This document shows positions 32,033 to 53,600 of a stretch of DNA of 53,601 nucleotides, one piece after another. This stretch comes from Gammaproteobacteria bacterium (GTDB lineage: Bacteria; Pseudomonadota; Gammaproteobacteria; GCA-001735895). The notes beneath the pieces are model-generated. The model had not been told where the DNA came from. It ran no database searches and worked only from the letters and a program-made list of their open reading frames with translations. Each line of letters starts with the position of its first letter. Position 1 is the stretch's first letter. The stretch is taken from positions 1 to 53,601 of the forward strand of contig JAAESG010000355.1 of the NCBI GenBank assembly GCA_024229615.1, given 5' to 3'. The translations under genes were made by a program, and so were the position numbers.

Positions 32033-32539
32033 ATGAACACATCAATCAGTAGGTTTGACTTCTTACAGGGAAAGTTTAGTGCAAAAAACCACCCGGTAAG
32101 ACCACCCTGGGCACTAGCCGAATCCGACTTTATCGACATTTGTAATCATTGTGGGGATTGTGTCAAGCAGTGCCCAACTAAAATAATTACCATGGGTCGA
32201 GGGCGATTTCCAGTGGTTAGTTTTGAATACGGTGAATGCCTGCTTTGTGGGGACTGTGTCAAAGCCTGTTTAACCGGCGCCTTGACACAGGCTCGCCAGA
32301 CCTCGGCCTGGGCTCTGAAAGCGGGACTTTCCACAGAGCGCTGTCTTGCCTTCAAATCGGTCGAATGTCGAAGTTGCTATGACCCTTGCGAGAGCCGCGC
32401 AATCAAAATGAAAAGCCAGATCGGCGCGGTTGCAATTCCAGTTATCGACGAATCGCTCTGTAATGGTTGTGGTGCCTGCTATGCACCCTGCCCAACAGGC
32501 GCCATTGAAATACGAAAACTACTGGAGCCAGCAGCATGA
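32033..32539 (+). CDS. napF: Ferredoxin-type protein NapF
   Basis: A 168-residue cytoplasmic iron-sulfur protein thought to assist NapA maturation. Three 4Fe-4S motif regions are visible: CNHCGDCVKQCP, CLLCGDCVKAC with the NapF-typical CRSCYDPCESRAI, and CNGCGACYAPCP. The frame is open from 31955, but the longer start would place the FNR box inside the gene; the ATG at 32033 (MNTSISRFDF) gives a normal NapF N terminus. It overlaps napD by four bases (ATGA) and is first in napFDAGHBC. Confidence 0.93.
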   Translation: MNTSISRFDFLQGKFSAKNHPVRPPWALAESDFIDICNHCGDCVKQCPTKIITMGRGRFPVVSFEYGECLLCGDCVKACLTGALTQARQTSAWALKAGLSTERCLAFKSVECRSCYDPCESRAIKMKSQIGAVAIPVIDESLCNGCGACYAPCPTGAIEIRKLLEPAA

Positions 32540-32775
32540 ATATCAGCGGTGTACTGGTGCACGCCTACCCCGAGAAGATCGCATCCGTTTCTCGCCATCT
32601 GGAAACGATAGCGGGACTCGAGATCCACGCCAGCAACGAAGCTGGAAAAATCGTGGTCACGCTGGAAGAAGCTGACGACACCAGCATGTCTGGCAAATTA
32701 CTGGATTTACAGAAGATACCCGGGGTCTTGAACGCCTCGATGATTTACCACCAATTTGACGAATTACGAGATTGA
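32536..32775 (+). CDS. napD: NapA signal-peptide chaperone NapD
   Basis: A 79-residue cytoplasmic chaperone that binds the Tat signal peptide of Nap[16 protein letters not shown] and the [12 protein letters not shown] segment are typical of NapD. The ATG overlaps the napF stop; napA follows after a strong ribosome-binding site. Confidence 0.93.
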
Positions 32776-32827
32776 GTACGTGCCGGGCACAAACCCGGGA
32801 TCCGACATGGTCTACAGGAGGCCTGAA

Positions 32828-35368: not shown

Positions 35369-35385
35369 TCTGATCCGAGTGGAAA

Positions 35386-36198
35386 ATGCCGATTAAAGCT
35401 TCAAAATCGGGAGTCCCTTCCCGGCAGGCCGAAAGCCGACGCAGGTTTTTGCTCGACTTGAGTCGCAGTGCTACCGGGGTGACGCTATTGAGTCTCGGTG
35501 TGGGCCTGTATTCGCGTCAATCAGCGTCGATGCCCGCGGAAGCCATCCGACCTCCCGGCGCACTCGAAGAGGCAGAGTTCGCTTCGGCCTGTATTCGTTG
35601 CGGTCTGTGCGTGCGTGCCTGCCCCTTCGACACGCTGGACCTCGCGCGACTGGGAGATGGCATTACCACTGGTACACCTTATTTCACGGCACGCGATGTG
35701 CCCTGCGAGATGTGCGACGATGTTCCCTGCGTTCAGGCTTGCCCTTCGGGGGCGCTCGACCCCGAATTGAAGCAAATCGATGAGGCACGAATGGGGCTCG
35801 CAGTGCTAGTCGATCAGGAAAACTGCCTTAATTTTCGGGGTCTGCGTTGTGATGTCTGTTATCGCGTCTGCCCTGCGATCAATCAGGCGATTACGCTGAA
35901 ACACATCCCCAATACCCGCAGTGGCAAGCACGCCAAGTTCATCCCGACCGTGCACGCCGATGCCTGTACCGGTTGCGGCAAGTGCGAGTATTCCTGCGTA
36001 CTCGAGGAGGCGGCAATCAAGGTATTGCCGCTACATCTTGCCAGGGGTGAACTGGGCAAACACTACCGTTGGGGCTGGAAGGAAAAAGAAGCCGCTGGTT
36101 CGAGCCTGGTGACTCCGGATGGCGAGCACCGTTACAACTTGCCTTCCGGTAAAACCTATGATTTCGAAGGCGAAGGCCTGTTGGAGTCGAGCCAGTGA
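35386..36198 (+). CDS. napG: Ferredoxin-type protein NapG
   Basis: A 270-residue periplasmic iron-sulfur protein that, with NapH, passes quinol electrons toward NapC/NapAB. The N terminus has a Tat motif ([12 protein letters not shown]). Four 4Fe-4S motifs follow: [43 protein letters not shown] and [11 protein letters not shown]. It is somewhat longer than E. coli NapG (231). It overlaps napH by four bases (GTGA). Confidence 0.92.
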
Positions 36199-37103
36199 AG
36201 AATTCTCCGTTTCCCGGATTCGAAGCCACCAAAAGCAAGGGCTGGTTGATGGCGCACAAATGGTTAATGCTACGCCGAATCAGCCAGATAACTATTTTTG
36301 CACTCTTTCTCCTGGGGCCTGTTTTCGGTGTCTGGGTTGTCAGTGGAAACCTGAACTCCAGCCTGACCCTGGAAATACTGCCATTGACTGATCCCTATCT
36401 ATTAACGCAATCCCTGGCCGCTGGCCACATGCAGGAAGCGACCGCACTGACAGGAGGTCTCATCGTCGTGGTTGTTTATTTTCTGCTCGGTGGCAGGACG
36501 TTCTGTTCGTGGGTGTGTCCGGTTAACCTGATAACCGACCTCGCCTTCTGGTTGCGCCAACGCCTCGGTATTCGTGGCGCATCCAGTCTCCCCAGGTACA
36601 CACGCTACCTGCTGCTCGTGGCAACACTGGTGTTGGCTTTTGTAACAGGCAGTATTGCCTGGGAGCTGATCAACCCGGTCTCGATGTTTCACCGCGGCGT
36701 AATTTTTGGAACCGGGTTCGCCTGGCTCATATTGCTCGCTGTGTTTCTCTTCGATCTGTTCGTCAGCCGTCGCGGCTGGTGTGGCCACCTCTGTCCGGTC
36801 GGCGCTTTCTACAGCTTGCTCGGTACGCACAGCATGCTGCGAGTACGCGCTAACGCTCGCGAGAAATGTGACGATTGCATGGACTGCTACCTGGTTTGTC
36901 CGGAGCAACAGGTACTACGACCTGTACTGAATGGCAGGGACAAAGGGATAGGACCTGTCATCGTTTCCCCAAACTGTACCAACTGTGGACGCTGTATCGA
37001 TGTCTGCTCGCAGGATGTCTTTCATTTCGGACTTCGATTTTACAATGCCGATCCGCTTGGATCTGATACCAACTACCTGGCTAGTCATTCTTCGGGAGTG
37101 TAA
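36195..37103 (+). CDS. napH: Quinol dehydrogenase membrane subunit NapH
   Basis: A 302-residue membrane protein with four predicted transmembrane helices, the loop motifs FCSWVCPVN and [11 protein letters not shown], and two C-terminal 4Fe-4S motifs ([27 protein letters not shown]). It oxidises quinol together with NapG. The start is GTG overlapping the napG stop. Confidence 0.93.
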
Positions 37104-37108
37104 GCACT

Positions 37109-37558
37109 ATGAAATATCTAAAAATTTTTACCATCTTAGTTACCATCCTGGGCTTAGGGCTCGCCTTCCAGTCGAGAGCGCAGGAGGTCAATTCACTGCG
37201 TGGTCCGGTCGATCTCGACCAGGACTCAAACGCACCTGAAATGAAGAAGTACCCGAAGGATGGAAAACCGATTGCACGCGACTATGTACAACAACCCCCA
37301 CTGGTACCGCACACAATCGCGCGCTACAAGATAAACCTGAAATCGAACAAATGTTTGAGCTGCCACAGCTGGAAAAACTATCGCCAATTCGATGCAACCA
37401 AAATCAGCCAGACACATTTCGAGGATCGTGATAACAATGTGCTGGCCAACGTTTCCGCACGCAGATATTTTTGCACTCAATGCCATGTACCTCAGGCAGA
37501 TGCCAAACCGCTGGTCGAGAACGAGTTCAAACCCGTTAGTGCAATCACCGGCGAGTAA
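37109..37558 (+). CDS. napB: Periplasmic nitrate reductase cytochrome subunit NapB
   Basis: A 149-residue secreted dihaem cytochrome c that delivers electrons to NapA. An N-terminal signal peptide ends near FQSRAQE; the two haem sites are CLSCH and CTQCH. It follows napH by five bases. Confidence 0.94.
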   Translation: MKYLKIFTILVTILGLGLAFQSRAQEVNSLRGPVDLDQDSNAPEMKKYPKDGKPIARDYVQQPPLVPHTIARYKINLKSNKCLSCHSWKNYRQFDATKISQTHFEDRDNNVLANVSARRYFCTQCHVPQADAKPLVENEFKPVSAITGE

Positions 37559-37588
37559 TCCTCGCCGCAGTAACACAGGAATCGCGTC

Positions 37589-38209
37589 ATGAGCAATCAA
37601 TCCGAAAATAAACCAAATTTCTTGAAATCACTGTGGCGAGTATTGAGAACTCCATCCGTAAGTTACTCGCTGGGCAGCGTGTTGCTGGTTGGATTTGTTT
37701 CCGGAATCATTTTCTGGGGCGGATTCAATACGGCCATGGAGATGACCAATAACGAGGAATTCTGCATCTCCTGTCACGAAATGGAAGACAACGTGTATGC
37801 AGAATACAAGGACACAATTCACTACAGCAACCGCACTGGAGTGCGGGCTACCTGTCCCGACTGCCACGTGCCGAAAGAATGGCAGCACAAGGTCATCAGG
37901 AAAATCCAGGCCAGTAACGAATTGCTGCACAAGGCACTCGGTTCGATCGACTCGCGTGAGAAATTTGAGGCCAAACGACTAAAACTCGCGCAAAACGTAT
38001 GGCGTGCGATGAAACAAACCGATTCGCGAGAATGCCGTAACTGTCACGACCTCGATTCGATGGATTTCGGCGAACAGGGACGTCGGGCAGTTAAACAGCA
38101 CTCGGAAGCACTGGAAAATAAGTCCACCTGTATCGACTGCCACAAGGGTATCGCGCACGAACTACCCGATATGCACGACGTCGATCCAACCAGTGTTATC
38201 GGTAACTGA
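37589..38209 (+). CDS. napC: Tetrahaem cytochrome c quinol dehydrogenase NapC
   Basis: A 206-residue NapC/NirT-family protein anchored by one N-terminal helix (about 28-50). It has four haem motifs: CISCH, CPDCH, CRNCH and CIDCH. It oxidises menaquinol or ubiquinol and reduces NapB. It is the last gene of the napFDAGHBC operon, which has the same order as in E. coli; no cytochrome c maturation (ccm) genes follow. Confidence 0.95.
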   Translation: MSNQSENKPNFLKSLWRVLRTPSVSYSLGSVLLVGFVSGIIFWGGFNTAMEMTNNEEFCISCHEMEDNVYAEYKDTIHYSNRTGVRATCPDCHVPKEWQHKVIRKIQASNELLHKALGSIDSREKFEAKRLKLAQNVWRAMKQTDSRECRNCHDLDSMDFGEQGRRAVKQHSEALENKSTCIDCHKGIAHELPDMHDVDPTSVIGN

Positions 38210-38883: not shown

Positions 38884-39001
38884 TTCGCCGCCTGTTGCGA
38901 AGAACGTGGCGTCACCGAAGGCCTTGAATTGTCATCGATCACGTGCCAATCTTTACATCTCTACCATAGCAAACGCGTGTTTTGCGTTTGGAGCACGTCA
39001 C

Positions 39002-39469
39002 TTGGACCTAGCAGAAGAAACAGATTTACTCCGCAAAATCCCGATGTTTGCCAAGATGGAAACCTCCAAATTGAAATTACTGGCCTTCGCCAGCGAAATC
39101 GTCGGCTTCCAGGATGGCGATATTGTCTTTAGTAGCGGTGACAGCGCCGATTTCGCTTACGTCATCATGGATGGCGCGGTAGATATTATTACCGAAACCA
39201 ACAGTGGCCCGATTGTCACGTCGACCCTCAGACAAAATCATCTAATTGGTGAGTTGGGATTACTCAACAATGCCCCGCGAAATGCGACCCTGGTCGCCAA
39301 CGGAGATCTTCATGCGATGAAAATAACCGCCGAAATGTTTTTCCGCATACTGCGGGAAAATTCGGAAGTTGCACTCGATGTTATTCGTATGCTGAGCAGC
39401 AAGCTGACACAATCCCATGAGCTGGTCGAAGCACTACAAAAGCAGGTAAATCAACAGGACGAGGCTTAA
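39002..39469 (+). CDS. Single-domain cyclic-nucleotide-binding protein
   Basis: A 155-residue protein that is almost entirely one cNMP-binding (CRP-type) beta barrel: FQDGDIVFSSGDSADFAYVIMDGAVDI, then the phosphate-cassette-like GELGLLNNAPRNATLVA. It ends in a helix (about 120-155) with no helix-turn-helix, so it is unlikely to be a transcription factor. The start is taken as TTG 39002, eight bases after GGAG (38990-38993); the longer open frame from 38906 runs into the aldehyde dehydrogenase pseudogene. Its TAA overlaps the next ATG (TAATG), coupling it to the HD-like hydrolase. A class III cyclase faces the pair, so ligand and cyclase may be linked. Confidence 0.8.
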   Translation: MDLAEETDLLRKIPMFAKMETSKLKLLAFASEIVGFQDGDIVFSSGDSADFAYVIMDGAVDIITETNSGPIVTSTLRQNHLIGELGLLNNAPRNATLVANGDLHAMKITAEMFFRILRENSEVALDVIRMLSSKLTQSHELVEALQKQVNQQDEA

Positions 39470-40125
39470 TGGCATCCCCCGAAGTGCAAGATATTTGCGG
39501 GATAGATCGTTTTCATTCGTTATGGCAACGTTGCCTGCTCGTCGCAATGCCGGACCACAGTGTCGCTATTCATAAGCAACTACTGTATGCATATAACGAG
39601 CCCCAACGTCATTATCACACCCTGGCGCATATCGAGCATTGCCTGGGCATGTTCGATTCCTGCGAATCTCTCGTTGACAATCCTGACGCACTCGAAATTG
39701 CCGTCTGGTTTCACGATGTCATTTATGAGCCCGAAAAAAGCGACAACGAAGCAAACAGCGCCGAGTTATACCTGGAACTCTCCGAAGGGGTCCACGCCAC
39801 CGAATTGCGTCAATTAGTGGCTCGATTAATCATCGCGACCCTGCACGATGGCAGTCCACTCGAAGACAGCGATGCCCGCTATATGATCGACATTGATCTT
39901 TCCAGTTTCGGTCTTGCCTGGGAGGAATTTGAACGCGACAGTCAAAATTTGCGCGCCGAAAAACCAGGTCTCAGTGATGCCGACTACTACCGCAAACTGG
40001 CAGATTTCAGATCGAAATTGCTGAGCAGGGGCAGGTTTTTCTACACAGAATTCTTCTGTCAACGTTATGAGCAACAGGTTCAGGATAACCTCTTCCGATA
40101 TTTCAAAAGCATTCCCGAGACCTGA
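39469..40125 (+). CDS. HD-type metal-dependent phosphohydrolase (COG4339-like)
   Basis: A 218-residue HD-superfamily protein. Metal ligands are visible in HYHTLAHIEH (about 48-57), the HD pair H82-D83 in WFHDVIYEPEKSDNE, a third histidine in ATLHDGS and the distal aspartates in MIDIDLSSFG. Family members are uncharacterised predicted hydrolases. It is translationally coupled to the cNMP-binding gene and convergent with the adenylate cyclase. A cyclic-nucleotide phosphodiesterase role is possible from context but unproven. Confidence 0.8.
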   Translation: MASPEVQDICGIDRFHSLWQRCLLVAMPDHSVAIHKQLLYAYNEPQRHYHTLAHIEHCLGMFDSCESLVDNPDALEIAVWFHDVIYEPEKSDNEANSAELYLELSEGVHATELRQLVARLIIATLHDGSPLEDSDARYMIDIDLSSFGLAWEEFERDSQNLRAEKPGLSDADYYRKLADFRSKLLSRGRFFYTEFFCQRYEQQVQDNLFRYFKSIPET

Positions 40126-41656: not shown

Positions 41657-42862
41657 ATGACTGAGCGACTGGAACAGTCCAGAATACTTATCTATAGCCA
41701 TGATTCGTTTGGTCTCGGGCATTTACGCCGTTGCCGTTCGATCGCCCATTCGCTGGTTGCCCGATTCAAGGGCTTATCGGTACTGGTTTTGTCCGGATCG
41801 CCCATCATCGGCAGCTTTGACTTTAAAGCGCGCGTTGATTTCGTTCGTATCCCGGGTGTTATCAAACTGAAGGACGGGGAATATACCTCCCTGGGACTGC
41901 ATATCGATCTGGAGCAAACCTTATCGATGCGCGAATCGATCATTTATCATACCGCTGCAACCTTCAAACCGGATATATTTCTGGTAGACAAGGAACCGAC
42001 CGGGCTGCAGGGAGAAGTCACCAGTACACTCAAAATGCTCAAACAACGGGGCACCATCAATGTGCTTGGTTTGCGAGACATAATGGACGAACCGAATCAG
42101 CTCAAAGCAGAATGGCAGCGTAAAGGAGTCGAGCCGGTGCTCGAAGAGCTTTATCACGATATCTGGGTGTATGGATTACATGAGATGGGTAGTCCGATCA
42201 AGGGTCTTGAACTCTCCAGTACGGTTAAAAACAAGATTGCCTATACCGGCTACCTGGGGCGTGAAATTCCGAACCATAGAAACTGGATATCACCGGTCGA
42301 TTACGAGGAGCCTTTTATACTGGTGACTGCCGGAGGTGGTGGTGATGGTGTCGAAATGGTGGACTGGGTCATTCGCGCCTATGAGTCGTCTGATGACCTG
42401 CCGCATCGGGCTGTTATTGTAACGGGCCCGTTTATGCCCGCGACCGAACAACAGGAATTTCACGATCGCTGCGACGGGCTCTCCAATATCGAGATTCTTA
42501 CCTTTGACAGTCATATTGAATTGCTCATGGAGAAGGCGATCGCAGTCGTCGCGATGGGAGGCTATAACACTTTTTGCGAAATTCTGTCATTCGACAAGCC
42601 TGCGCTGATCATACCGAGATCGATTCCCCGGCAAGAACAATTGATCCGCGCTGAACGCGCTGTCGCGCTTGGCCTGGTGACCATGCTCGATCCAGCAGGC
42701 GAGCGCGACCCATTGCAGATGGCGGCTGCAATACAGGCCTTACCGAAGCAGCCGAATCCATCGTCTACACAAATTAACGGTTTACTGTCTGGCCACGAAT
42801 CGATCGCCGAAATCGTACGCCAGTACCTCGAACCCCCTGAAAATGAAAGCATAACCGCCTGA
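41657..42862 (+). CDS. MurG-like glycosyltransferase (COG4671 type), first copy
   Basis: A 401-residue predicted GT-B glycosyltransferase. The N-terminal YSHDSFGLGHLRRC glycine/histidine loop and the C-terminal nucleotide-sugar motif GGYNTFCEILSFDKPALIIPR, with a downstream RQEQLIRAERAVALG helix, match the MurG/GT28-like COG4671 family. Donor and acceptor are unknown. No signal peptide is present, so it acts in the cytoplasm or on the inner membrane face. It heads a three-gene run with a second copy and a deacetylase-like gene, and is divergent from the cyclase. Confidence 0.83.
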   Translation: MTERLEQSRILIYSHDSFGLGHLRRCRSIAHSLVARFKGLSVLVLSGSPIIGSFDFKARVDFVRIPGVIKLKDGEYTSLGLHIDLEQTLSMRESIIYHTAATFKPDIFLVDKEPTGLQGEVTSTLKMLKQRGTINVLGLRDIMDEPNQLKAEWQRKGVEPVLEELYHDIWVYGLHEMGSPIKGLELSSTVKNKIAYTGYLGREIPNHRNWISPVDYEEPFILVTAGGGGDGVEMVDWVIRAYESSDDLPHRAVIVTGPFMPATEQQEFHDRCDGLSNIEILTFDSHIELLMEKAIAVVAMGGYNTFCEILSFDKPALIIPRSIPRQEQLIRAERAVALGLVTMLDPAGERDPLQMAAAIQALPKQPNPSSTQINGLLSGHESIAEIVRQYLEPPENESITA

Positions 42863-42869
42863 TCCTGGA

Positions 42870-44036
42870 ATGCCGCTCAGCTCGCCAGTTCGTGCCTTGA
42901 TATATGTTCAGCACCTGCTCGGTATCGGGCACCTGCAACGTTCGCTGCGACTCGCGGCCGGTCTCGCGCAACAGGGCTTCGAAGTCGAACTCGCATCCGG
43001 TGGCAGACCCCATGCCCTGTTTAAAGCTGAATCGGTAAAACTCAGGCAACTACCCCCTGTATACAGCCCCGACGGGAGCTTTTCACGTTTGCTGGACAGC
43101 AACGATGAGGAGATCGACGAGCACTGGCGAAGCACGCGTCGGCAGCAATTGCTCGACATCTTTACAGCCTTCGCACCACAGGTTCTGATCACTGAAACTT
43201 TTCCTTTTGGACGGCGCATGATGCGCTTCGAGCTGATACCGCTGCTTGAGGCGGCTCGCAAACAGAGCCAGAACATACAGATAATTGCGTCGATACGAGA
43301 CATTCTGCAACCGAAATCAAAACCCGGGCGCAACCAGGAGGTCTGTGATCTCATCGAGCGTTATTACGACCATGTACTGGTACACGGAGATTCACAGGTG
43401 GCCTGTCTCGCAGACAGTTTCGATCTGGCAGATCGTATTGCCGACAAGGTTTCATATAGCGGTTACATCAGCCAAAGCAAAAACCAGCTAACGGCCGAGG
43501 GCGAGGGTCTTGACGAAGTGCTGGTGTCCGCGGGTGGCAGTGCGACGGGCCTGGCGATATTGAAAACCGCGATCGCGGCCCGACCTTTATCATCTCTAAA
43601 CCATCTTCATTGGCGAATCCTGGTCAGCCCTTCGATTGACGAAGTACAATTTCAGATGCTTGCTAACCCCGCCAACGAGGGAATCAGCATCGAACGCAAC
43701 CGTCCTGACTTCAGTGAACTGATGCAACGCGCCAGGTTATCGATATCACAGGCTGGCTACAATACGGTGACTGATATACTGGGCAGCAAGGTTGCAGCGG
43801 TCGTAATTCCCTATGCTGAAGCCGACGAAATCGAACAAAGCAAACGCGCAGATTTACTGCAACACCGCGGACGTCTGGTTGCACTGTCGCAGGACAGGCT
43901 ATCTGTCTCGTCTCTTTGTAATGCCATAGAACAGGCATGCAATCTGAATACGACCCTCGAAGTCAATCTGGCCGGCGCCACGAACAGTGCCAAATTGATA
44001 TACCGATGGCTGCAACAAAAGGAAACAGCCAAATGA
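42870..44036 (+). CDS. MurG-like glycosyltransferase (COG4671 type), second copy
   Basis: A 388-residue paralogue of the preceding gene, starting seven bases after it. It keeps the N-terminal YVQHLLGIGHLQRS loop and the C-terminal ISQAGYNTVTDILGSK...VIPYAE donor-binding motif. The two are clearly related but quite diverged, suggesting two successive transfer steps or a heteromeric enzyme; this is inference. It overlaps the next gene by four bases (ATGA). Confidence 0.83.
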   Translation: MPLSSPVRALIYVQHLLGIGHLQRSLRLAAGLAQQGFEVELASGGRPHALFKAESVKLRQLPPVYSPDGSFSRLLDSNDEEIDEHWRSTRRQQLLDIFTAFAPQVLITETFPFGRRMMRFELIPLLEAARKQSQNIQIIASIRDILQPKSKPGRNQEVCDLIERYYDHVLVHGDSQVACLADSFDLADRIADKVSYSGYISQSKNQLTAEGEGLDEVLVSAGGSATGLAILKTAIAARPLSSLNHLHWRILVSPSIDEVQFQMLANPANEGISIERNRPDFSELMQRARLSISQAGYNTVTDILGSKVAAVVIPYAEADEIEQSKRADLLQHRGRLVALSQDRLSVSSLCNAIEQACNLNTTLEVNLAGATNSAKLIYRWLQQKETAK

Positions 44037-44806
44037 ATTCACCGGTGACGGAAGCCTGGAGCTGGCTCGGACAGGAACTCGATCGCTGGAGTGAAGCCGA
44101 CAGAATTATCGACTTCTGGTGGCGTGACGACGACGCCACGGACAACACCGTCCAACTCGAAAAATTGCTCAAACTGAGCAAGGATCATAATGCTCCGCTA
44201 GCACTGGCAGTGATACCTTCCAGGCTCAAACCTGCGCTGGTGAACTCACTGCAAGGTCGATCATTGGTAAGCGTCCTGCAACATGGTTTTGCACACCAAA
44301 ATCATGCTGCGGCAGGTCAACGCAAGCTCGAGCTCGGTGGCACGCAAACCAGGGCGAAAACGCTTGCTGAACTGCGACAGGGGCATCAAATTCTAAGCCG
44401 GGATTTTGCAGCCAGTTTTAATCCAGTCCTGGTTCCACCATGGAACCGGATTAATGTCGAGATTTTGTCGAGTTTAAGCGACATTGGATTCAGCGGGATA
44501 TCAACCATGAAGGTACGCCGAGATGCCTGCCCGGCACCCGGTCTGCTCCAGGTAAACACGCATCTGGACCCAGTCAACTGGCGCCATGGGGGAGGATTCA
44601 TCGGTGTTTATCCCGCTATCGCAATCCTGATTCAACACCTGCAGGCTAAACGCAACGGATATCGGGACAGCGAGGAACCCACTGGCATCCTCACTCATCA
44701 CCTCGCGCACAACGACGCGGTGTGGCGCTTCGTCAAAGATCTGTTACAGTTCCTCGGTCAGCACCCCGCGGTCCGCTGGCAATCCTGCGTCACCATCTGG
44801 CCCTGA
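44033..44806 (+). CDS. Polysaccharide-deacetylase-like protein
   Basis: A 257-residue protein related to the NodB/carbohydrate esterase 4 fold. WWRDDDATDN (D32-D34) corresponds to the catalytic/metal aspartate motif, QHGFAHQNHA to the histidine metal motif and LVPPWNR to the third motif. No signal peptide is present, so it would act in the cytoplasm, unlike most peptidoglycan deacetylases; removal of acetyl from a glycan intermediate is a reasonable guess. The frame is open from 43937, but the ATG at 44033 overlaps the upstream stop and has AAGGA ahead of it. Confidence 0.75.
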   Translation: MNSPVTEAWSWLGQELDRWSEADRIIDFWWRDDDATDNTVQLEKLLKLSKDHNAPLALAVIPSRLKPALVNSLQGRSLVSVLQHGFAHQNHAAAGQRKLELGGTQTRAKTLAELRQGHQILSRDFAASFNPVLVPPWNRINVEILSSLSDIGFSGISTMKVRRDACPAPGLLQVNTHLDPVNWRHGGGFIGVYPAIAILIQHLQAKRNGYRDSEEPTGILTHHLAHNDAVWRFVKDLLQFLGQHPAVRWQSCVTIWP

Positions 44807-44845: not shown

Positions 44846-45439
44846 TCATATCGAGATTTTTTGGAGCGGGGTGGACTGATAGGAATCGAGTAGCCTGCCA
44901 TCCGCCGACAGCTCGAACTCGTGGAGTGAGTTCCAGGCGAAATCGATCGGTGACTCGCCACGCATATTCCAGTTGTAAGCCAGAGCATAGATGCAGCGGA
45001 TGATGCCTTTATGGACAATCGCCGCGCTGTTCTGACCATGGGCAGCCACTTGTTGCAACCAGGGTTGTAAACGATCCTGGACTTCGCGTGGGCTTTCTCC
45101 ACCCGGTGGACGAAAATCGAGCCCTCTGCCTTCGTTGATGCGCATTTCATCACCAAGCCTTTTACGTAACGGCTTCAGTATTTCGCCTTCCCAGTCACCC
45201 CAATGCATTTCCGTCAAGGCGTCCTCGATGGTGACGCCATTCAGTCCCAATAGTCTGGCCGTCTCGGTTGCGCGGCATAATGGACTGCAATACCAGCGCC
45301 AGTCACCCAGGCCTTTCGGCAATGCCAACGACTGAAAGAGTTCACGTCCGCAATCGCTTAGCGGCTGATCGATTCTACCCTGGATACGTTTCTCGAGATT
45401 CCATTCGGTAATACCATGACGTAATAAGGTGAGTTTCAT
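44846..45439 (-). CDS. Histidine phosphatase family protein
   Basis: A 197-residue phosphatase with the canonical LRHGITEWN (H8), SPLCRATETARLL and the second histidine in IVHKGIIRC. The PPGGES loop resembles cobC/gpmB-type small-molecule phosphatases. It is translationally coupled to the upstream GT4 gene (four-base overlap), which suggests dephosphorylation of a sugar-phosphate or glycan intermediate rather than a glycolytic role. The exact substrate is unknown. Confidence 0.85.
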   Translation of the reverse strand: MKLTLLRHGITEWNLEKRIQGRIDQPLSDCGRELFQSLALPKGLGDWRWYCSPLCRATETARLLGLNGVTIEDALTEMHWGDWEGEILKPLRKRLGDEMRINEGRGLDFRPPGGESPREVQDRLQPWLQQVAAHGQNSAAIVHKGIIRCIYALAYNWNMRGESPIDFAWNSLHEFELSADGRLLDSYQSTPLQKISI

Positions 45440-46683
45440 TCCTGCCTGCCTTTGCCAAGTGACTGTTCGAGTCTCTCAACCAGAGTATCGATTCCCCGGT
45501 CCATGGAAAATTTGCTACGCACCCTGGTGAATCCGGCCTGCGCCAGTTGTCCGCGTAATTGTGGGTCACCAATCAGCTTTTCCAGCGCCTGTGCCAACTG
45601 TTCACTATTTTTTTGTTCCACCAGCCAACCGGTCTCGGCGTGTATGATGAGTTCTGGAATACCGGAAATACGGGTTGACAGACAGGCCAGATTCTGGCTT
45701 TGGGCCTCCATCAGAACGTTAGGTAAACCGTCACGATCACCATCTGCGGAAATCTTACTCGGTAATACGAACAGATCCGCTTGTCGATACTGTGCCAAAA
45801 CTTCGGTTTGTGGCAGTGCACCGAGCCAGGTTATCCGTCCGTCAAGGCCGAGCTCTTGGGCCTGTTGCTGAAGCTGCCCAAGTAATTCACCGCCACCGAT
45901 GTGTACAAACTTCCAGTACAGCGAGGTCGGTAGTCGAGCCAGCGCCGCCAGCAGCACTTCATAGCCCTTTTTATCTACCGCGCGCCCAACACTGACCAGT
46001 TGGACGCGATTCGCTTCGTCACTGCCGTCACGCATCGATGACTCTTCATGTTTTTGATCGAAGCGTCCAAAATCGAGCCCGTGGTAGAGCAACTTAACCC
46101 GGTTTTGGTCGTCAGATAGAGAAGACAGGAATTTTTCATTCGCTCCGGTACATGTGACCACCCAGTCGGTGCTGGCAAGTTTTTCGCGCAGTTCCCACTC
46201 GGGAATCGTCCAGATGTCCTTGGCATGGGCGGATACGCTCCAGGATTGGCGATTGATCTGACTGGCGTAGTAACTCACCGATGCCGGTGTGTGCATAAAG
46301 TGGGTGTAATAGTGTTGCACCGAGGGCGGCATCTCCTGGGCCATGACGATGGCCTGGGCAAAACGCCGCAAGCGGTTGCGCGTCGGATCGCGCCTGAAAT
46401 CGCGCAGCAAGCTCAGCAGTGCGGACCATAGTCCGGGTTTAAGACAAGCCCCGAGGAAAGCGCGTAATATGCGTGCGATTTCATCGTGCACGTACTCAGG
46501 CAGATAATAAATCCTGGCTTCGATTTCGGCATGAATCGGATGGGTTGCAGGATCATAGGGATGGCGTAGAGAGAAAATGCAAAGATCGTACCCACACTGC
46601 TCCAATGCCCGGATTTCCTGGGCAATAAAAGTTTCCGACAAGCGCGGATAACCCTTTAAAATAATTGCAATCCTGGGAGGCAT
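45436..46683 (-). CDS. GT4-family glycosyltransferase
   Basis: A 415-residue GT-B glycosyltransferase. The N terminus IAIILKGYPRLSETFIAQEI is typical of group 1 transferases in polysaccharide clusters, and the C-terminal DGLPNVLMEAQSQNL...SGIPELI is the GT4 donor-binding region with its paired glutamates. The frame extends to 46770, but the ATG at 46683 gives the normal N terminus; that start lies within the untranslated leader of the divergent ABC gene. Sugar specificity is unknown. Confidence 0.86.
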   Translation of the reverse strand: MPPRIAIILKGYPRLSETFIAQEIRALEQCGYDLCIFSLRHPYDPATHPIHAEIEARIYYLPEYVHDEIARILRAFLGACLKPGLWSALLSLLRDFRRDPTRNRLRRFAQAIVMAQEMPPSVQHYYTHFMHTPASVSYYASQINRQSWSVSAHAKDIWTIPEWELREKLASTDWVVTCTGANEKFLSSLSDDQNRVKLLYHGLDFGRFDQKHEESSMRDGSDEANRVQLVSVGRAVDKKGYEVLLAALARLPTSLYWKFVHIGGGELLGQLQQQAQELGLDGRITWLGALPQTEVLAQYRQADLFVLPSKISADGDRDGLPNVLMEAQSQNLACLSTRISGIPELIIHAETGWLVEQKNSEQLAQALEKLIGDPQLRGQLAQAGFTRVRSKFSMDRGIDTLVERLEQSLGKGRQE

Positions 46684-46799
46684 ATCCCGTATTTGATATA
46701 AGTCGGCCGATGCGCGATAGTACACCGGCGTGGCTGCAGGTGCTACCAGCTCCGCACGGGGAACCTGCACTACAAAACAGAATCAAACACCGGGAGTCT

Positions 46800-49433
46800 A
46801 TGGAACCGTCGTTTTACAAATATATACTGCATCACAGCAAAAAAGACCAGATTGGTCTTGTCTTGCTATCCCTGGTTTCGCTTCCCCTGATTTATGTCAC
46901 GCTTGAGCTTCCCAAGAGAATCATCAACCTGCTCGAAGGCCTCGATATCCCGGAAAGTTTTTTCGGCCATGAATTCGATCGACTGACTTACCTGATGATA
47001 TTGAGTGTAGCCTTCCTGCTAGTTGTGTTAACCAGTGGTGGCCTCAAGTACCTGTTGAATATCTACCGTGGCTCACTCGGTGAACGCATGTTGCGGCGTT
47101 TCAGATACGAACTCTATACGCGCATTCTGCGATTCCCGCTGCCTCATTTCAAACGAATTTCGTCGGGTGAGATCATCCCGATGATTACCGCGGAAACCGA
47201 ACCTCTTGGCGAATTCATTGGTGAATCCTTCACCTTGCCGGTATTCCAGGGAGGCACCCTGCTGACCTACCTGTTCTTTATTTTTCAACAGGATGTATTT
47301 CTCGGCCTTGCGGCAATTTCGTTGTACCCGTTTCAACTGTACGTAATCCCAAGATTACAGAAACGCGTCAATGAACTGTCGAAGGAAAGAGTCGCGGTGG
47401 CACGAAACCTGGCCGGGCGTATCGGTGAAACGGTTTCTGGCATCAGCGAAGTACACGCAAATGACACCAGTCACTACGAGCGAGCGCATATCAGTCAGCG
47501 TCTGGGCAAAATTTACCTGATCCGCTTCGCGATTTACAAGCGCAAGTTTTTTATCAAGTTCCTGAACAATTTCATCGCTCAGCTGACACCTTTCTTCTTT
47601 TATTCGGTCGGGGGTTACTTTGTATTGCGCGGTGATTTGTCGATCGGCTCGATGGTGGCGGTGCTGGTCGCTTACAAGGACCTCTCCGGTCCGTGGAAGG
47701 AGTTGCTGCGCTACTATCAGCGTATGGAAGATATCAAGGTCAAGTACACTCAAATCATCCAGCAATTCAATCCGCTGAACATGATTCAAAATGACATTAT
47801 CGACCAGCGCCCCGATTCGCTGACGCTGCCGAATCGAGAGATTCAAGGTTATAACATCCGATACAGCGAAGACGGACTCTATTTCAGCATCGATGGCGCC
47901 AGTTTCAGATTTCCGCTCGATCGGCATTTTGCCGCAGTCGGAATGGGCAATAGTGGTAAGGATGAACTCGCCCTGCTGATGTCGAGACTGATCAATCCAA
48001 GCTCCGGCAGTATCAACATTGGTCACTCGAAGATGGAGGATATTCCCGAATCGATCACCGGCAAGCGCCTCGGTTATATCGGGAGTACCGCTTACATGTT
48101 TAACGGTACGGTTTACGACAATTTGTGTTATGCACTTAAACATCATCCCGTCGAGCAGCCCGCAACAGAGATGCACAAGGAGCTGGAACACGAGCGAGCG
48201 CTGGCACAGCTCGCCGGTAATTCACCACATCGTTACGACGATAACTGGATTGACCATAACGAACTGGGGTTAGACAGCCCCAACCAGTTGGCGACACGTA
48301 TTATCGAGATTCTCGGAAGCGTCGAGCTGGATGAAGAAATCTATCAGTTCGGCTTGCAATCATTCGTCAATCAAACACAAAACCTCGACCTGTCGGAACG
48401 TATCATGCAGGCACGAAACCAGCTGCGTGACAAGTTCAAGCAAACCGATATTGCACGATTGGTCGAACCCTTCGACCACGAGAAATACAATCTCAACATG
48501 ACCGTGTCGGAAAACCTGTTGTTTGGTACTGTTTATGGTGATTCCATCGATGTCGAACAGTTGATCAACAACCCGGTTATTCAAAAGATCCTGCAACAAA
48601 ACAACTTGAACGAAGCTTTTTTGGACGCCGGTGTAAAAATTGCGGAAATCATGCTTGACCTGTTTTCCGATGTCGAACCTGACAGCGAGCTTTTCGATCA
48701 GTTCAGTTTCATCGAAGCCGACGATCTGCCCGAGTTCAATAAATTGCTGCAAGATATCAAACGTTACGGTCTCGAAGATTTACCCCTGGAGGAAAAGCGA
48801 AGGCTCATTTCCCTGCCCTTTAAATTGATCGTCGCACGTCATCGACTGGGGCTGATCACCGAGCCCATACAGCAGAGTATTCTCACCGCGCGACGTCAGA
48901 TTCACGAGCTGGCGGGTAGCGAAAATCTGGGCATCGAATTTTTTGACGAAACCCGATATAACCCGCGCATTTCGATCCAGGATAATATCCTGTTTGGAAA
49001 ACTGGTCTATGGACAGGCCAATGCGCAACAAAAGATCAATGAGCTGATTGTAGACGTGGTTAAGACCCTGGGTCTGAGAAATGAAATCATCGAGGCCGGC
49101 CTCCGCTACGAGGTAGGTGTCGCCGGCGGACGCCTGTCCTCGATTCAGCGGCAAAAGTTGGGGTTGGCGCGCGCCTTACTCAAGGCGCCGGATTTACTGG
49201 TCATCAATGAAGCATTGGCCAGCCTCGATACCGCCAGTGAACGCCGCCTGATCAACAATGTCAGAGACGTCATGCAGGGTCGTGGAATACTGTGGGTACT
49301 GGGAAAGGTTCGGCTGTCCGAGCTTTTCGACGAGGTCATGGTTATGGAACGCGGCAGGTTAGCCGATAAGGGGCCCTTTACAAAGCTGCAGGAGAGTAGT
49401 GTGCACTTCCAGCAATTGCTCGCTACCGAGTAG
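46800..49433 (+). CDS. Non-canonical ABC exporter with degenerate, expanded ATPase domain
   Basis: An 877-residue fused exporter. Residues 1 to about 325 form an exporter-type transmembrane domain (ELPKRIINLL, SGEIIPMITAE, SIGSMVAVLVAYKDLSGPW). The nucleotide-binding domain is aberrant: Walker A reads GMGNSGKD (D388 in place of Ser/Thr), the Q-loop region reads GSTAYMFNG (Gln lacking), the signature reads LSSIQ (779-783), Walker B reads LLVINEA (N803 for Asp; E804 kept) and the switch histidine position is V837. About 350 residues separate the Q-loop from the signature, some 290 more than usual, and the motif NGTVYDNL recurs as VSENLLFG (about 570) and IQDNILFG (about 725). The frame opens at 46665, but GGGAG before the ATG at 46800 sets the start. 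Confidence 0.88.
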   Translation: MEPSFYKYILHHSKKDQIGLVLLSLVSLPLIYVTLELPKRIINLLEGLDIPESFFGHEFDRLTYLMILSVAFLLVVLTSGGLKYLLNIYRGSLGERMLRRFRYELYTRILRFPLPHFKRISSGEIIPMITAETEPLGEFIGESFTLPVFQGGTLLTYLFFIFQQDVFLGLAAISLYPFQLYVIPRLQKRVNELSKERVAVARNLAGRIGETVSGISEVHANDTSHYERAHISQRLGKIYLIRFAIYKRKFFIKFLNNFIAQLTPFFFYSVGGYFVLRGDLSIGSMVAVLVAYKDLSGPWKELLRYYQRMEDIKVKYTQIIQQFNPLNMIQNDIIDQRPDSLTLPNREIQGYNIRYSEDGLYFSIDGASFRFPLDRHFAAVGMGNSGKDELALLMSRLINPSSGSINIGHSKMEDIPESITGKRLGYIGSTAYMFNGTVYDNLCYALKHHPVEQPATEMHKELEHERALAQLAGNSPHRYDDNWIDHNELGLDSPNQLATRIIEILGSVELDEEIYQFGLQSFVNQTQNLDLSERIMQARNQLRDKFKQTDIARLVEPFDHEKYNLNMTVSENLLFGTVYGDSIDVEQLINNPVIQKILQQNNLNEAFLDAGVKIAEIMLDLFSDVEPDSELFDQFSFIEADDLPEFNKLLQDIKRYGLEDLPLEEKRRLISLPFKLIVARHRLGLITEPIQQSILTARRQIHELAGSENLGIEFFDETRYNPRISIQDNILFGKLVYGQANAQQKINELIVDVVKTLGLRNEIIEAGLRYEVGVAGGRLSSIQRQKLGLARALLKAPDLLVINEALASLDTASERRLINNVRDVMQGRGILWVLGKVRLSELFDEVMVMERGRLADKGPFTKLQESSVHFQQLLATE

Positions 49434-49445
49434 GTCGAATAATCT

Positions 49446-49466
49446 AGTACTTCTTGAAGGAGTACT
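49446..49466. repeat. Imperfect palindrome between convergent genes
   Basis: AGTACT ... AGTACT arms with an inner CTT/AAG pair form an inverted repeat. A second overlapping pair, AAGGAGT/ACTCCTT (49457-49477), reaches into the methyltransferase end. Neither has a T-run in the right orientation for the ABC or the methyltransferase transcript, so a terminator role is only possible. Confidence 0.5.
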
Positions 49467-50344
49467 TAGCACTCCTTAAAAAACAGGTGCGTGGTTAGCA
49501 GTCTGTCAGCCAATTCGCGTTTGAGCCCACTCCAGAAACTGTCCAGATTGATTCGAAGCGGTGGATTGAATGGTTTTAATCCTGCATTGTCGCCCAACAT
49601 GATCAGTGTGTTGCGCGTAAAGCAGTTGATATGCTCAAGCGGATGTATGGCATCGAGTGCCGGTGACCAGCCCTTCTGTCGCAGATGGCCTGCGACACCA
49701 CGCCCATCCGGAACCCGAATATAGATAAACCCACCCGGGCGTAAATGCCGGCACAGCTCCTGAAGAGTTTGCAAAGGCTCGGGTAAGTGCTCAAATACCT
49801 GATTCGCAAAGATACAATCGAAGCCAGGACTCTCGGAAGGCAGCGAATCGATAACCCTGATGCCCATCTGACGAGCATATTCTACCCGTTGTGGTGACAG
49901 TTCGTATCCGACTACGTCGAAGCCATGGGCCTGTGCCATGCGGCTCCAGTAACCCCAGCCCATACCGTACTCAAGCACACGAGTCTGATCGGGCCGCTTA
50001 TCGAATAACCGCGCCAGGCTATGGAGCTGGCCGGCATATTGCCGAAACAACTTTGTCTTGGCGGTTTGCTTCTTTTTCAGGCTCGCGTCATGATCGATCC
50101 AGTCCCGATACAAAACCAGCATTCCATTATCATCGAGGACAGGATCCTGAAAAATAAAGCCACACACACAGGCCACGATCCGGTAACTCTCGGAACCCAG
50201 AGTCTCCAGATCTACCCTGCCCTGGTAAAATGTATCCAGAAAACTCGATAGCCGGGAATTCCGGTAAGAGATTTCACTCAAAATACTGCGCTTCGGCGAT
50301 GCGCAAAGCGGACAGATTTCACGATGAAGGAATCTGATCTGCAT
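49466..50344 (-). CDS. Class I SAM-dependent methyltransferase with N-terminal zinc-ribbon-like motif
   Basis: A 292-residue protein. An N-terminal cysteine pair (CPLCASPK) and a later CVCGF suggest a small zinc-binding element, as in several sugar/lipid methyltransferases of polysaccharide clusters. The core has motif I VLEYGMGWGYWS, the acidic residue in VVGYELSP, and DCIFANQVFEHLPEP with LRPGGFIYIRVPD, i.e. a Methyltransf_23-type fold. The target is unknown. It lies three bases after the dipeptide-type permease gene on the same strand and converges on the ABC exporter, so it could belong functionally to either. Confidence 0.83.
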   Translation of the reverse strand: MQIRFLHREICPLCASPKRSILSEISYRNSRLSSFLDTFYQGRVDLETLGSESYRIVACVCGFIFQDPVLDDNGMLVLYRDWIDHDASLKKKQTAKTKLFRQYAGQLHSLARLFDKRPDQTRVLEYGMGWGYWSRMAQAHGFDVVGYELSPQRVEYARQMGIRVIDSLPSESPGFDCIFANQVFEHLPEPLQTLQELCRHLRPGGFIYIRVPDGRGVAGHLRQKGWSPALDAIHPLEHINCFTRNTLIMLGDNAGLKPFNPPLRINLDSFWSGLKRELADRLLTTHLFFKEC

Positions 50345-50347: not shown

Positions 50348-51496
50348 CTACTTGTAAGGATCTGCCGCATCACGCAATCCATCGCCGAAAAAGTTGAAGG
50401 TGATAATCACCAGGATGACCGGTACTACAGGAAACAACAACCATGGATATAACGCAACCACATTTATGTTCTGAGCTTCATTCAACAAAACACCCCAACT
50501 GGTAACGGGCGGTCTCAATCCCAGACCCAGGAAACTCAACGCAGTTTCACCCAATATCATCGCCGGCACGGACAGCGTTGCCGATGCGATCAGGTGGCTC
50601 ATGAATCCGGGTAGCAAATGACGTCCGATGATACGTCCGGGCCTGGCACCCATTAATTCTGCCGCTGAGCAGTAATCTTCTTCCCGTAACGCGAGCAGCT
50701 TTGAACGTACCGCGCGTGCCAACCCGGTCCAGTCGAGCATCGCAAGAATGACGGTAATACCGAAAAAAATCAGGATGGGACTCCAGTTAACCGGCAGCAC
50801 TGCCGACAATGCCATCCACAACGGTAATTCGGGAAAAGAGCGAATCACCTCGATTACCCGTTGAACCGTGGCGTCGACCCAGCCACCGTAATAACCGGCC
50901 AGGCCGCCAATGATGATACCCATGGTAAAGCTGATCAGAATTCCGACCAGACCTATGGTCAGCGATATTCGTGCCCCGTAGGTAATTCGCGACAACATAT
51001 CACGTCCGAGGCGATCGGTACCCAGCAGGAAAAAGGTACCATTCTCGGGCGGACAAACCAGATGAAAGTCGGCCTCGAACAAACCCCAGAATTGATAACT
51101 ATCGCCGCGACAAAAAAATCTCAGGGGCTGTACCACATCTCTGTTCTCCTGATAGTTGCGAATCAGCAAGTCCATATCGAGTTGGTAACCCCAGCCGTAA
51201 ACGAAGGGGCCAATAAATTCTCCTTCGTGAAACAGGTGGATTGACTGTGGTGGCGAATATATAAATTCTGTATTACGCGTATGCAGGTCATACGGCGCGA
51301 TCACTTCACTGAACATGATCGTCGCATAGTTCAGCACCAGGATAACACCGCAGATAACCGCAAGGCGGTGGCGCCGTAACTTCCACCACATTAGTTTCCA
51401 TTGCGACGCGAGATAGTATTTCTCCTGAGCCGGGGTTAATGATTCAATCGAATGAGGATCGAAGGGTTCAAGTGAAACAAAGTGCTCGGTTCTCAT
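50348..51496 (-). CDS. Oligopeptide-type ABC transporter permease (DppC/YejE-like)
   Basis: A 382-residue inner-membrane permease. A cytoplasmic N-terminal region precedes the first helix (about 45), followed by a roughly 100-residue periplasmic loop, as in YejE-like permeases. The rest is the DppC core (GTDRLGRDMLSRITYGARISL) and the EAA loop AAELMGARPGRIIGRHLLPG that contacts the ATPase. It overlaps the partner permease gene by four bases. Probably imports peptides or an oligosaccharide-peptide; the substrate is unknown. Confidence 0.9.
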   Translation of the reverse strand: MRTEHFVSLEPFDPHSIESLTPAQEKYYLASQWKLMWWKLRRHRLAVICGVILVLNYATIMFSEVIAPYDLHTRNTEFIYSPPQSIHLFHEGEFIGPFVYGWGYQLDMDLLIRNYQENRDVVQPLRFFCRGDSYQFWGLFEADFHLVCPPENGTFFLLGTDRLGRDMLSRITYGARISLTIGLVGILISFTMGIIIGGLAGYYGGWVDATVQRVIEVIRSFPELPLWMALSAVLPVNWSPILIFFGITVILAMLDWTGLARAVRSKLLALREEDYCSAAELMGARPGRIIGRHLLPGFMSHLIASATLSVPAMILGETALSFLGLGLRPPVTSWGVLLNEAQNINVVALYPWLLFPVVPVILVIITFNFFGDGLRDAADPYK

Positions 51497-52491
51497 TTAG
51501 TAGCACTCCCGCCAAGCCGAATACGGGGGTCGAGCAACGCCAGGGCAATATCCGAAACCAGGACACCGAACACGGTCAATACGGCAAGAAACATCAGGAA
51601 AGAACCGGCCAGGTACATATCCTGACTTTGCAGGGCACTGAGCAGAATCGGCCCGGTCGTCGGTAAGGACATGACAACCGCGACGATTTCAGCACCGGAG
51701 ATTACCGTTGGCAACAGATTGCCAATGTCGGCAATGAAAAAATTGAGTGCGATACGCAATGGATATTTCACCAGCAGCTTGCCCGGTGGCAATCCCTTGG
51801 CTCGCCCTGTGGTGACATATTGCTTTTGCAATTCATCCAGCAGGTTGGCGCGTAGCCTTCGGATCATACCTGCAGTTCCCGAAGTACCGATTACGACGAC
51901 AGGAATCCACAGATGTTCGAGAATCGAAATCATCTTGCCCACACTCCAGGGCGCGTCGATATATTGTGAGTCCATAAGACCACCAATGCTGGTGCCGAAA
52001 TAGACATTAGCGAAGTAAAGCATCACCAGAGCGAGCAGGAAATTCGGCGTCGCAAGACCGAGAAATCCGAGCGTCGACAAACCGTAATCACCCCAGCTGT
52101 ACTGATGAGTAGCCGAATAAATACCAATTGGAAAGGCAACAATCCACGTGAACAGGATGGTTGCGATAGAAATAATCACCGTCAGGAAGAGCCGATCGCC
52201 AACGACCTCGGTGACCGGTAAATCGTACTCGAAGGAATATCCGAAATCTCCCTGCAGCATTCCGATGACCCAATGCCAGTACTGGTGCAACATTGGCTTG
52301 TCGAGACCGTATTGCTCGCGCAAAAACTTGATTTTTTGCTCATCTACCGATTCACCCTGGCTTTGCAGTTCAGCGATATGGCTTTCCAGGTAATCACCGG
52401 GTGGCAACTGGATGATGACGAACACCAACATACTGATCACCACCAGCGTGGGAATCATGGTCAGAATACGTCGTAGTATATAGGTCAGCAC
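51493..52491 (-). CDS. Oligopeptide-type ABC transporter permease (DppB-like)
   Basis: A 332-residue permease with six predicted helices. It begins LTYILRRILTMIPTLVVISM, the DppB N terminus, and has the EAA-type loop YVTTGRAKGLPPGKLLVKYPL. The start is GTG at 52491, overlapping the TAG of the substrate-binding protein gene by one base. It pairs with the DppC-like permease downstream; no ATPase gene lies in the window. Confidence 0.9.
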   Translation of the reverse strand: MLTYILRRILTMIPTLVVISMLVFVIIQLPPGDYLESHIAELQSQGESVDEQKIKFLREQYGLDKPMLHQYWHWVIGMLQGDFGYSFEYDLPVTEVVGDRLFLTVIISIATILFTWIVAFPIGIYSATHQYSWGDYGLSTLGFLGLATPNFLLALVMLYFANVYFGTSIGGLMDSQYIDAPWSVGKMISILEHLWIPVVVIGTSGTAGMIRRLRANLLDELQKQYVTTGRAKGLPPGKLLVKYPLRIALNFFIADIGNLLPTVISGAEIVAVVMSLPTTGPILLSALQSQDMYLAGSFLMFLAVLTVFGVLVSDIALALLDPRIRLGGSATK

Positions 52492-53600
52492 TAGCGCTTG
52501 ACCCCGTCGAACCAGAAGGTATCGGGTTTATATATTCCGAAGTAAGCGCCCGGTGAAATATCGTAGAAACCTCTATCCGGCACATTGTGCAAATGATTGT
52601 TGACCACGACCGGATGTGGCACGTGATTGACAATGCCAATGCTGAACATCTGATCGCGATTAATTTCGAGTATGCGGTGCCAGATTTCGGTGCGTTCCTG
52701 GTGGCTCAAGGCGCGAGCCCATTGGTCGTTCAACTCAACTAGTTCCCTCGCAGCTGGAAGATCAGGTGCTTCGCCGCTTTTGCCACCGGATTCGTAATAC
52801 GAACCCCACTTCGGCCACTGGTACTGGTACTTCGAAGTAGGCGCCAGCTCACTGGGACTGCTTTCGGAAGTCGACATCGCGTTCGCCAGGCCCGACCAGA
52901 TGGACATGATCGCGTCGCCCGAAAAAATCCGGTTACGAAACACTTCACGCGTCGAGGGTACGCTGTAGAGCTTGACACCCACCTTTAGCCAACTGTCGTG
53001 AATCAATTCGAGTACATCGGTTTGTTCGGTACTCTCGCCGGCGGTCTGGATCAGGATTTCGAGCGGGCGCCCATCCGGCAGCAGGCGGACACCGCGATCG
53101 TCACGTCGATCCAGGCCGAGTTCGTCGAGTAGTTCCCCGGCGTGCTGAAGGTCGTACTCGGCCCATGCGCTCTGGTATTCGGGTCTATACAGCGGGCTTT
53201 CCTCGAGCACTGTATTATTGCTTTCCTGAACCAGCCCAAAATAAACCACCTGGTTAATTTCACGACGGTGTATCGACAGAGAAAGCGCACGTCGGAAACG
53301 CCGGTCTCGCATTAGCTCACGGTATGTCTTGTCATTGGTGTTCAGATTCGGAAAAAGTGCCATATGAGCACCTTTCGCGGTCTGCCACAGGCGTACGTCA
53401 AAATCGTTCCGCTTCGACGCGGACTTGAGAAAAGTGTAATTGTCCAAGCGCAGATAGCGTGCCTGCAAATCCGATTCGCCGGCTCCGGTTTTCGCGGGCA
53501 CCAGTTTGCTGGAAGCAATATTGATCGCGATCGAGTCGATATAAGGAAGTTGCCGGCCATTTTGGTCGACGCGATGGTAATAGGGATTGCGCTTGAAGAT
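52491..53600 (-). CDS. Family 5 extracellular solute-binding protein (5' partial)
   Basis: The C-terminal 369 or so residues of an SBP_bac_5 protein; the frame is open to the window end, so the start and signal peptide lie beyond it. RNPYYHRVDQNGRQLPYID near the cut end is a family hallmark. MRDRRFRRALSLSIHRREI and GRPLEILIQTAGEST follow, and the end (FYDISPGAYFGIYKPDTFW) is complete. It is the periplasmic receptor of the two permeases that follow. The ligand is unknown. Confidence 0.92.
   Translation of the reverse strand: MFKRNPYYHRVDQNGRQLPYIDSIAINIASSKLVPAKTGAGESDLQARYLRLDNYTFLKSASKRNDFDVRLWQTAKGAHMALFPNLNTNDKTYRELMRDRRFRRALSLSIHRREINQVVYFGLVQESNNTVLEESPLYRPEYQSAWAEYDLQHAGELLDELGLDRRDDRGVRLLPDGRPLEILIQTAGESTEQTDVLELIHDSWLKVGVKLYSVPSTREVFRNRIFSGDAIMSIWSGLANAMSTSESSPSELAPTSKYQYQWPKWGSYYESGGKSGEAPDLPAARELVELNDQWARALSHQERTEIWHRILEINRDQMFSIGIVNHVPHPVVVNNHLHNVPDRGFYDISPGAYFGIYKPDTFWFDGVKR

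Follow-up and report, generated by a model that had tools for sequence, protein, structure and literature searches.

The exporter gene and its neighborhood

The window, by which we mean the whole stretch of 53,601 nucleotides that was analyzed, carries an ABC exporter gene within a cluster that also encodes glycosyltransferases, a cyclase, and a stand-alone cyclic nucleotide-binding domain (CNBD) protein (Table 1). The exporter frame opens with an ATG at 46800, just 5' of which lies a Shine-Dalgarno-like gggag, and runs to a stop at 49433 with no internal stops. Pfam finds the six-helix exporter membrane domain (ABC_membrane, PF00664) at residues 63-291 (7e-21) and ABC_tran in two separate stretches, the best of which is 365-471; NCBIfam exporter models cover the membrane domain and the N-terminal half of the nucleotide-binding domain (NBD) to ∼445-449 and pick up again at ∼725.

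The ATPase motifs of this copy are substituted. Walker A is GMGNSGKD (G381..K387-D388), which departs from GxxGxGK[ST] and retains the Lys (K387); the Q-loop region, LGYIGSTAYMFNGTV (424-438), contains no Gln; the signature is LSSIQ (779-783) as opposed to LSGGQ; and Walker B is LLVINEA (N803, E804) as opposed to hhhhDE, with the catalytic Glu804 retained here, which is not the case family-wide. The switch His is missing. A sequence-only reading of this locus had described an intact 877-residue frame with GKD, LSSIQ, and INE and with neither Q-loop Gln nor switch His, and these motif statements all hold; only the residue it assigned to the switch position, Val837, needs correcting, as alignment by eye with L067 (VILIAHRARL) and L076 (FITHTAAL) puts Gly835 there, which leaves the conclusion unchanged.

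Table 1. Features of the exporter locus, in window coordinates
Feature	Position	Strand	Evidence
Stand-alone CNBD protein, 187 aa, CNBD the sole domain found; phosphate-binding cassette GELGLLNNAPRNATL	38906..39469	+	Pfam PF00027, 1.6e-15
Adenylate/guanylate cyclase, 450 aa	40151..41503	-	Pfam PF00211, 5e-28
GT28-type glycosyltransferase, conserved cluster member	41657..42862	+	
Second GT28-type glycosyltransferase, conserved cluster member	42870..44036	+	
Putative polysaccharide-deacetylase-like protein, conserved cluster member	44033..44806	+	Weak match to DUF2334, under the Pfam cut-off
Histidine phosphatase, conserved cluster member	44846..45439	-	
GT4 glycosyltransferase (EpsE-like), conserved cluster member	45436..46770	-	
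Degenerate ABC exporter, 877 aa, membrane domain and expanded ATPase-like domain	46800..49433	+	ORF, Pfam, homologues
Type IV ABC exporter membrane domain, residues 1-330, best conserved part	46800..47789	+	Pfam PF00664
NBD N-terminal half, residues 345-450: Walker A GNSGKD; Q-loop-like copy 1, lacking Gln	47832..48149	+	
Q-loop-like copy 2, RLVEPFDHEKYNLNMTVSENLLFGT, residues 553-577, strongly conserved in family	48456..48530	+	
Q-loop-like copy 3, IEFFDETRYNPRISIQDNILFGK, residues 712-734, continuous with C-terminal NBD half	48933..49001	+	
NBD C-terminal half, with LSSIQ signature and INEA Walker B; switch His absent	49002..49430	+	
SAM methyltransferase, conserved in genus	49466..50344	-	
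Opp-type importer: oppC, oppB, start-truncated oppA (contig end); in most homologous loci	50348..53600	-	

From the window's genus to rhizobia, the same gene set recurs: two GT28-like and one GT4 glycosyltransferase, the deacetylase-like protein, the histidine phosphatase, the Opp-type importer, the cyclase, and the CNBD protein; in individual loci, some of these genes are absent or lie elsewhere. Because the fused exporter of roseobacter loci stands without glycosyltransferases nearby, a glycan role is not necessarily universal, and the roseobacter substrate may differ. The GT4 frame, as listed from a GTG at 46770, lies 29 bases from the exporter start; its conserved N-terminus suggests that the true start is ∼85 bases inside, which would leave a divergent promoter region. 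Between the CNBD gene and the cyclase gene, the genus conserves a 218-amino acid protein with no Pfam family (39469-40125), and periplasmic nitrate reductase (nap) genes (31082-38209), comprising ferredoxin-type proteins, the molybdopterin catalytic subunit, NapB, and a NapC/NirT-type cytochrome, directly precede the CNBD gene.

Occurrence, selection, and motif state of the family

Full-length homologues were found at 30-77% identity overall. Most sampled MAGs of the window's genus carry one at 64-77%, a second group lies at 44-47%, and plasmid homologues at 30-44% are rhizobial or come from Sinorhizobium, Azospirillum, Methylobacterium, and roseobacters. Plasmid records at E <1e-80 number 262, and 259 of these cover at least 80% of the exporter protein. 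In an even draw of Pseudomonadota genomes, 32 of 398 (∼8%) match at E <= 1e-60, with the genome of the window itself and a handful of partial matches included in the count. Overall, the family is found in Alphaproteobacteria and in part of the Gammaproteobacteria. Because no other genus of the window's class gave a family-level match among the matches listed in the genus and 398-genome searches, transfer from Alphaproteobacteria to the window's genus is plausible. The window's own genome also encodes, on contig C511, a 990-amino acid ABC exporter (L009) whose signature is canonical and whose NBD halves are not separated by an insert, and similar frames of 940-1000 amino acids recur within the genus.

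Across 18 gamma homologues, the membrane domain had a median dN/dS of 0.056, and the NBD halves and the insert had medians of 0.105-0.110, these medians being drawn from unsaturated pairs only, with synonymous sites near saturation in many pairs; the closest homologue pair gave 0.049/0.567. Judged by these ratios, the exporter family is evolving under purifying selection. The sequence-only reading had proposed that the altered domain is maintained, and that canonical motifs in homologues of a lone degenerate copy, or a dN/dS near 1, would instead point to decay. The outcome was the opposite: every homologue is degenerate, and dN/dS is well below 1 in all regions. That this is an ordinary exporter gene in decay is so improbable that we consider it already refuted; single copies are broken in places (as in the S. 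meliloti 1021 record), but dozens of homologues are intact and full length, and dN/dS is low everywhere. Assembly error and pseudogene status were ruled out on the same two grounds. In S. meliloti 1021 (NC_003078 841723-844390, L051), the exporter orthologue is split across two frames, and in S. meliloti ml46 (L050:7420-8590, 9886-10861), matches to both GT28-like genes lie in split pieces with no annotated CDS; the S. meliloti cluster has a partly decayed look.

In a motif census of 62 aligned family sequences, none had a complete ATPase motif set. The Q-loop Gln was absent from the aligned column (0/61), and the Walker A Lys was K in 34 sequences and A, R, G, L, or V in 27. Walker A Ser/Thr was found in 11 of the 61 sequences with a residue at that column, most members having Asp or Glu, and the motif reads GPNGSGAE or GGTSGGGE in rhizobia, GTNALALR in Azospirillum, and SKHASERS in Ruegeria. 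LSGGQ itself occurred in 0/62 members; L068 alone has LTGGQ, but without the Walker A Lys. The Walker B Asp column holds N in 44 sequences and D in 10, Walker B Glu is present in 28, and the two acidic residues occur together in few members (L086, L088, L089, L077), while the switch His, by eye, is kept in L067 and L076 only. Identical losses recur in dozens of homologues, far beyond chance, and with the losses family-wide, a pseudo-ATPase, one of the functions the sequence-only reading had offered, is the best reading of the NBD. Because individual members retain single motifs, the ancestor was probably an ordinary exporter whose motifs were then lost piecemeal. ATP binding may survive in some members, among them L046, which keeps GKS, and L086, L088, and L089, which keep GKS together with a DE Walker B; the window copy keeps the Walker A Lys. 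An active ATPase with relaxed motifs is very improbable: Glu804 would fit such an enzyme, but the signature Gly-Gly, the Q-loop Gln, the switch His, the Walker B Asp, and the Mg-binding Ser are all lost in one domain of the window protein, and homologues show further losses.

The expanded NBD and the membrane domain

The ∼290-residue expansion between Q-loop and signature that the sequence-only reading had noted is real and spans residues ∼447 to ∼725. By profile comparison, it is an internal repeat comprising three copies of a Q-loop/helical segment, a unit of the form ..VE.FD...YN...TV.ENLLFG with its following helices recurring at ∼421-446, 553-577, and 712-734. Copies 2 and 3 scored 80.4 against each other (E 5e-13; maximum in 100 column shuffles 20.2) and copies 1 and 3 scored 43.5 (maximum in 100 column shuffles 20.6); the comparison of copies 1 and 2, at 35.2 against a maximum of 31.7 in 100 column shuffles, is weak on its own. 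A foreign domain in the insert was ruled out, there being no significant Pfam domain and the profiles showing internal repeats.

A predicted model of residues 335-877 had moderate confidence (pLDDT 65.8, pTM 0.60), and we make no claim from it about the fold of the insert, most of which falls outside the NBD core that aligns to exporter NBDs. The best match of this model by VIA-align was 4q7k (Z 13.8, rmsd 2.1, 160 residues), and the NBD core fold is thus predicted to be retained. A full-length AlphaFold model built from 7 sequences was poor (pLDDT 49.5) and was excluded from use. Such a retained core, together with the Walker A Lys of 34 family sequences including the window protein, would suit an ATP-gated channel or flippase in which ATP is bound and not hydrolyzed and binding at the altered site still closes the NBDs. 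We regard this as improbable, as the Mg-binding Ser/Thr has become Asp or Glu in most members and the Walker B Asp has become Asn, and whole branches (rhizobia, roseobacters, and Azospirillum) lack the Walker A Lys.

The membrane domain is the best conserved part of the family, with a mean majority-residue frequency of 0.66 compared with 0.49-0.53 for the remainder. It carries a family-specific TM5 (K..NNF...TPFFFY, 249-268) and TM6 (AYKD..GPWKEL, 291-302), helix names being assigned by homology, and 41 positions are conserved at >=90% in the family and >=75% in four relatives without an NBD, and at <=20% in ten canonical exporters. Family-specific conserved residues include K249, K253, N256, N257, T263, and P264 in TM5, Y292, K293, D294, and E301 in TM6, and, close to where TM3 begins, E132. 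With the glutamate ladder and proton coupling of SbmA/BacA transporters in mind, the conserved charged residues E132/E134 and K293/D294 were noted in the domain.

NBD-less relatives of 399-413 amino acids (L130:8531-9730, L131:8540-9781(-), and L135:8001-9200), with a membrane domain 44% identical, sit among multicopper oxidase/cupredoxin genes (neighbor names by eye) in other Pseudomonadota and carry the same TM5/TM6 signature. Shorter ones of 315-325 amino acids and 27-29% identity (L133:8596-9543(-), L134:8398-9375) occur in two genomes of the window's genus. These proteins show that such a membrane domain can persist in a chain that has no ATPase domain of its own, though an ATPase might be supplied to them by a separate subunit. 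In a FastTree phylogeny of membrane domains, the family and its NBD-less relatives split from ten canonical exporters with support of 0.88; the four NBD-less proteins formed one clade among dead-NBD members, and we make no claim about the order of NBD loss given the weak deep support of 0.64. A further, more distant group (L091 and L092, "pABCx"; loci L127, L128), of 863-895 amino acids, matches the dead NBD and insert only; its membrane part looks different, and it has no adjacent CNBD.

These patterns bear on whether the protein transports at all. It could be a scaffold or receptor that moves no substrate and instead relays cyclic-nucleotide signals or assembles the glycosyltransferases and the Opp importer at the membrane, a view favored by the family-wide loss of ATPase motifs, the lasting linkage to CNBD and cyclase genes, and the purifying selection on the insert repeats. 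This is unlikely in our judgment, as it is the membrane domain and not the cytosolic part that is best conserved, polar residues of TM5 and TM6 included, and as the NBD-less relatives keep the same membrane signature.

Cyclic nucleotide linkage and a candidate mechanism

A CNBD is fused to the exporter C-terminus at 11 loci and encoded at 17 others by a gene directly following on the same strand (-3 to 224 bp), so that it is fused or adjacent at 28 of the 30 loci outside the main gamma group (the exceptions being L046 and L104). In the window, the CNBD gene lies 7.3 kb from the exporter, beside the cyclase gene, and this placement at opposite cluster ends is that of the genus. Pfam PF00027 matches three fused tails and one stand-alone protein, and the phosphate-binding cassette (GE.ALL...PRTAT) is kept in most of the aligned CNBDs. 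Within the genus, cluster genes are mostly co-present or co-absent: exporter, CNBD, glycosyltransferase, and cyclase are all missing together from G012, G014, and G027. Of these four genes, G016 retains the cyclase alone, G015 and G019 carry the exporter but no CNBD, glycosyltransferase, or cyclase, and G028 (a 71% complete assembly) has all but the exporter. Two domains that are fused in some lineages and encoded next to each other in others are, on strong grounds, taken to be functionally linked, and because the CNBD and the dead exporter show both arrangements, we infer such a link for them. This is a new element relative to the sequence-only reading, which had suggested a nucleotide sensor without connecting the CNBD to the exporter; the likely sensor is this separate or fused domain.

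With family-wide motif loss, purifying selection, a three-copy repeat, conserved membrane residues, and linkage to CNBD and glycan genes all visible in the sequences, our leading explanation, which we hold tentatively and put a little short of probable, is a transporter with the ABC-exporter fold and a dead ATPase, in which cyclic nucleotides gate the movement of a glycan or glycolipid and the protein's own ATP hydrolysis is not the driver. The NBD would have lost catalysis, undergone internal duplication, and taken on a regulatory or assembly role, and a homodimer would move a glycan or glycolipid made by the neighboring glycosyltransferases. Its conformational change would be driven by an ion gradient, as in SbmA/BacA, or by the substrate's own gradient. 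The cluster cyclase would make cAMP or cGMP, and the CNBD protein would read it and act on the dead NBD to gate the transporter. A bolder version, possible but rather doubtful, is that the family is a class that dropped ATP as fuel and turned its motor, enlarged by internal duplication, into a receptor platform for the CNBD. Gated by a second messenger, it would act on surface glycans as a secondary transporter or flippase, and some of its relatives would have shed the motor entirely.

The main known alternative is a heterodimeric exporter with one degenerate site, and the sequence-only reading had suggested half of a heteromeric exporter. A canonical partner encoded elsewhere would then supply one working composite ATP site. 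Such exporters are well known (PMC7756269; PMC12038006), TmrAB, BmrCD, MsRv1273c/72c, and TAP likewise having substituted catalytic residues in one NBD, and the same genome encodes other ABC exporters. We found nothing in favor of this arrangement in the cluster and rate it as quite improbable: no canonical half-exporter was seen in the window cluster or among annotated genes at homologous loci, and in contrast to the known pairs, the whole motif set is degenerate. Because this chain has changes in Walker A, Walker B, and the signature alike, neither composite site would be intact, and the Walker A Lys is missing from several members. In known heterodimeric exporters, the two genes are usually neighbors.

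ATP hydrolysis is the defining feature of ABC transporters. Like the type IV exporters MsbA, Sav1866/BmrA, and TmrAB, the window protein has a six-helix PF00664 domain followed by an NBD with both halves recognizable and, in the predicted model, the NBD core fold. Unlike them, it lacks the Q-loop Gln, LSGGQ, the Walker B DE, and the switch His, and it has the ∼290-residue insert, a CNBD fused or nearby, and the TM5/TM6 residues of its family. SbmA is a proton-driven transporter with the ABC-exporter fold and no ATP hydrolysis, and SbmA/BacA (SLiPT) proteins have been proposed to descend from full ABC exporters (PMC13316013). Their architecture, with no NBD, is matched by L130, L131, and L135, whereas the window protein keeps a dead NBD-derived domain with an insert. 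SbmA/BacA is a separate sequence family: at E 0.1, PF00664 was the only membrane-domain model that Pfam matched to the window protein, SbmA_BacA not being among the hits. By analogy, SbmA offers a precedent for how the window transporter might work, the window protein not being of the SbmA family. S. meliloti MsbA2 (SMb21191), the only experimentally studied neighbor that we considered, is likewise an ABC exporter next to glycosyltransferases, proposed to export a polysaccharide (PMC3687685, PMC12239276). We rejected it as a known relative, since the exporter at its position (pSymB ∼942 kb) matches weakly, in the C-terminal NBD (33%, E 1.7e-8), and the S. meliloti orthologue of the window exporter is a different locus, at 841.7-844.4 kb.

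A search of open-licence literature returned no description of a degenerate, CNBD-linked ABC exporter family, which is weak evidence of novelty. This plasmid- and chromosome-borne family has lost its hydrolysis motifs with its membrane domain under the strongest constraint. Alongside SbmA/BacA, it may thus exemplify another way in which primary transport became independent of ATP, and one whose intermediate stages can still be seen: some members are partly canonical, others are fully dead, and certain relatives have no motor. Given the lasting CNBD link, signal gating of export could be tested directly in rhizobia and roseobacters that can be cultured. The database label "ABC transporter ATP-binding protein" that many members carry is probably misleading.
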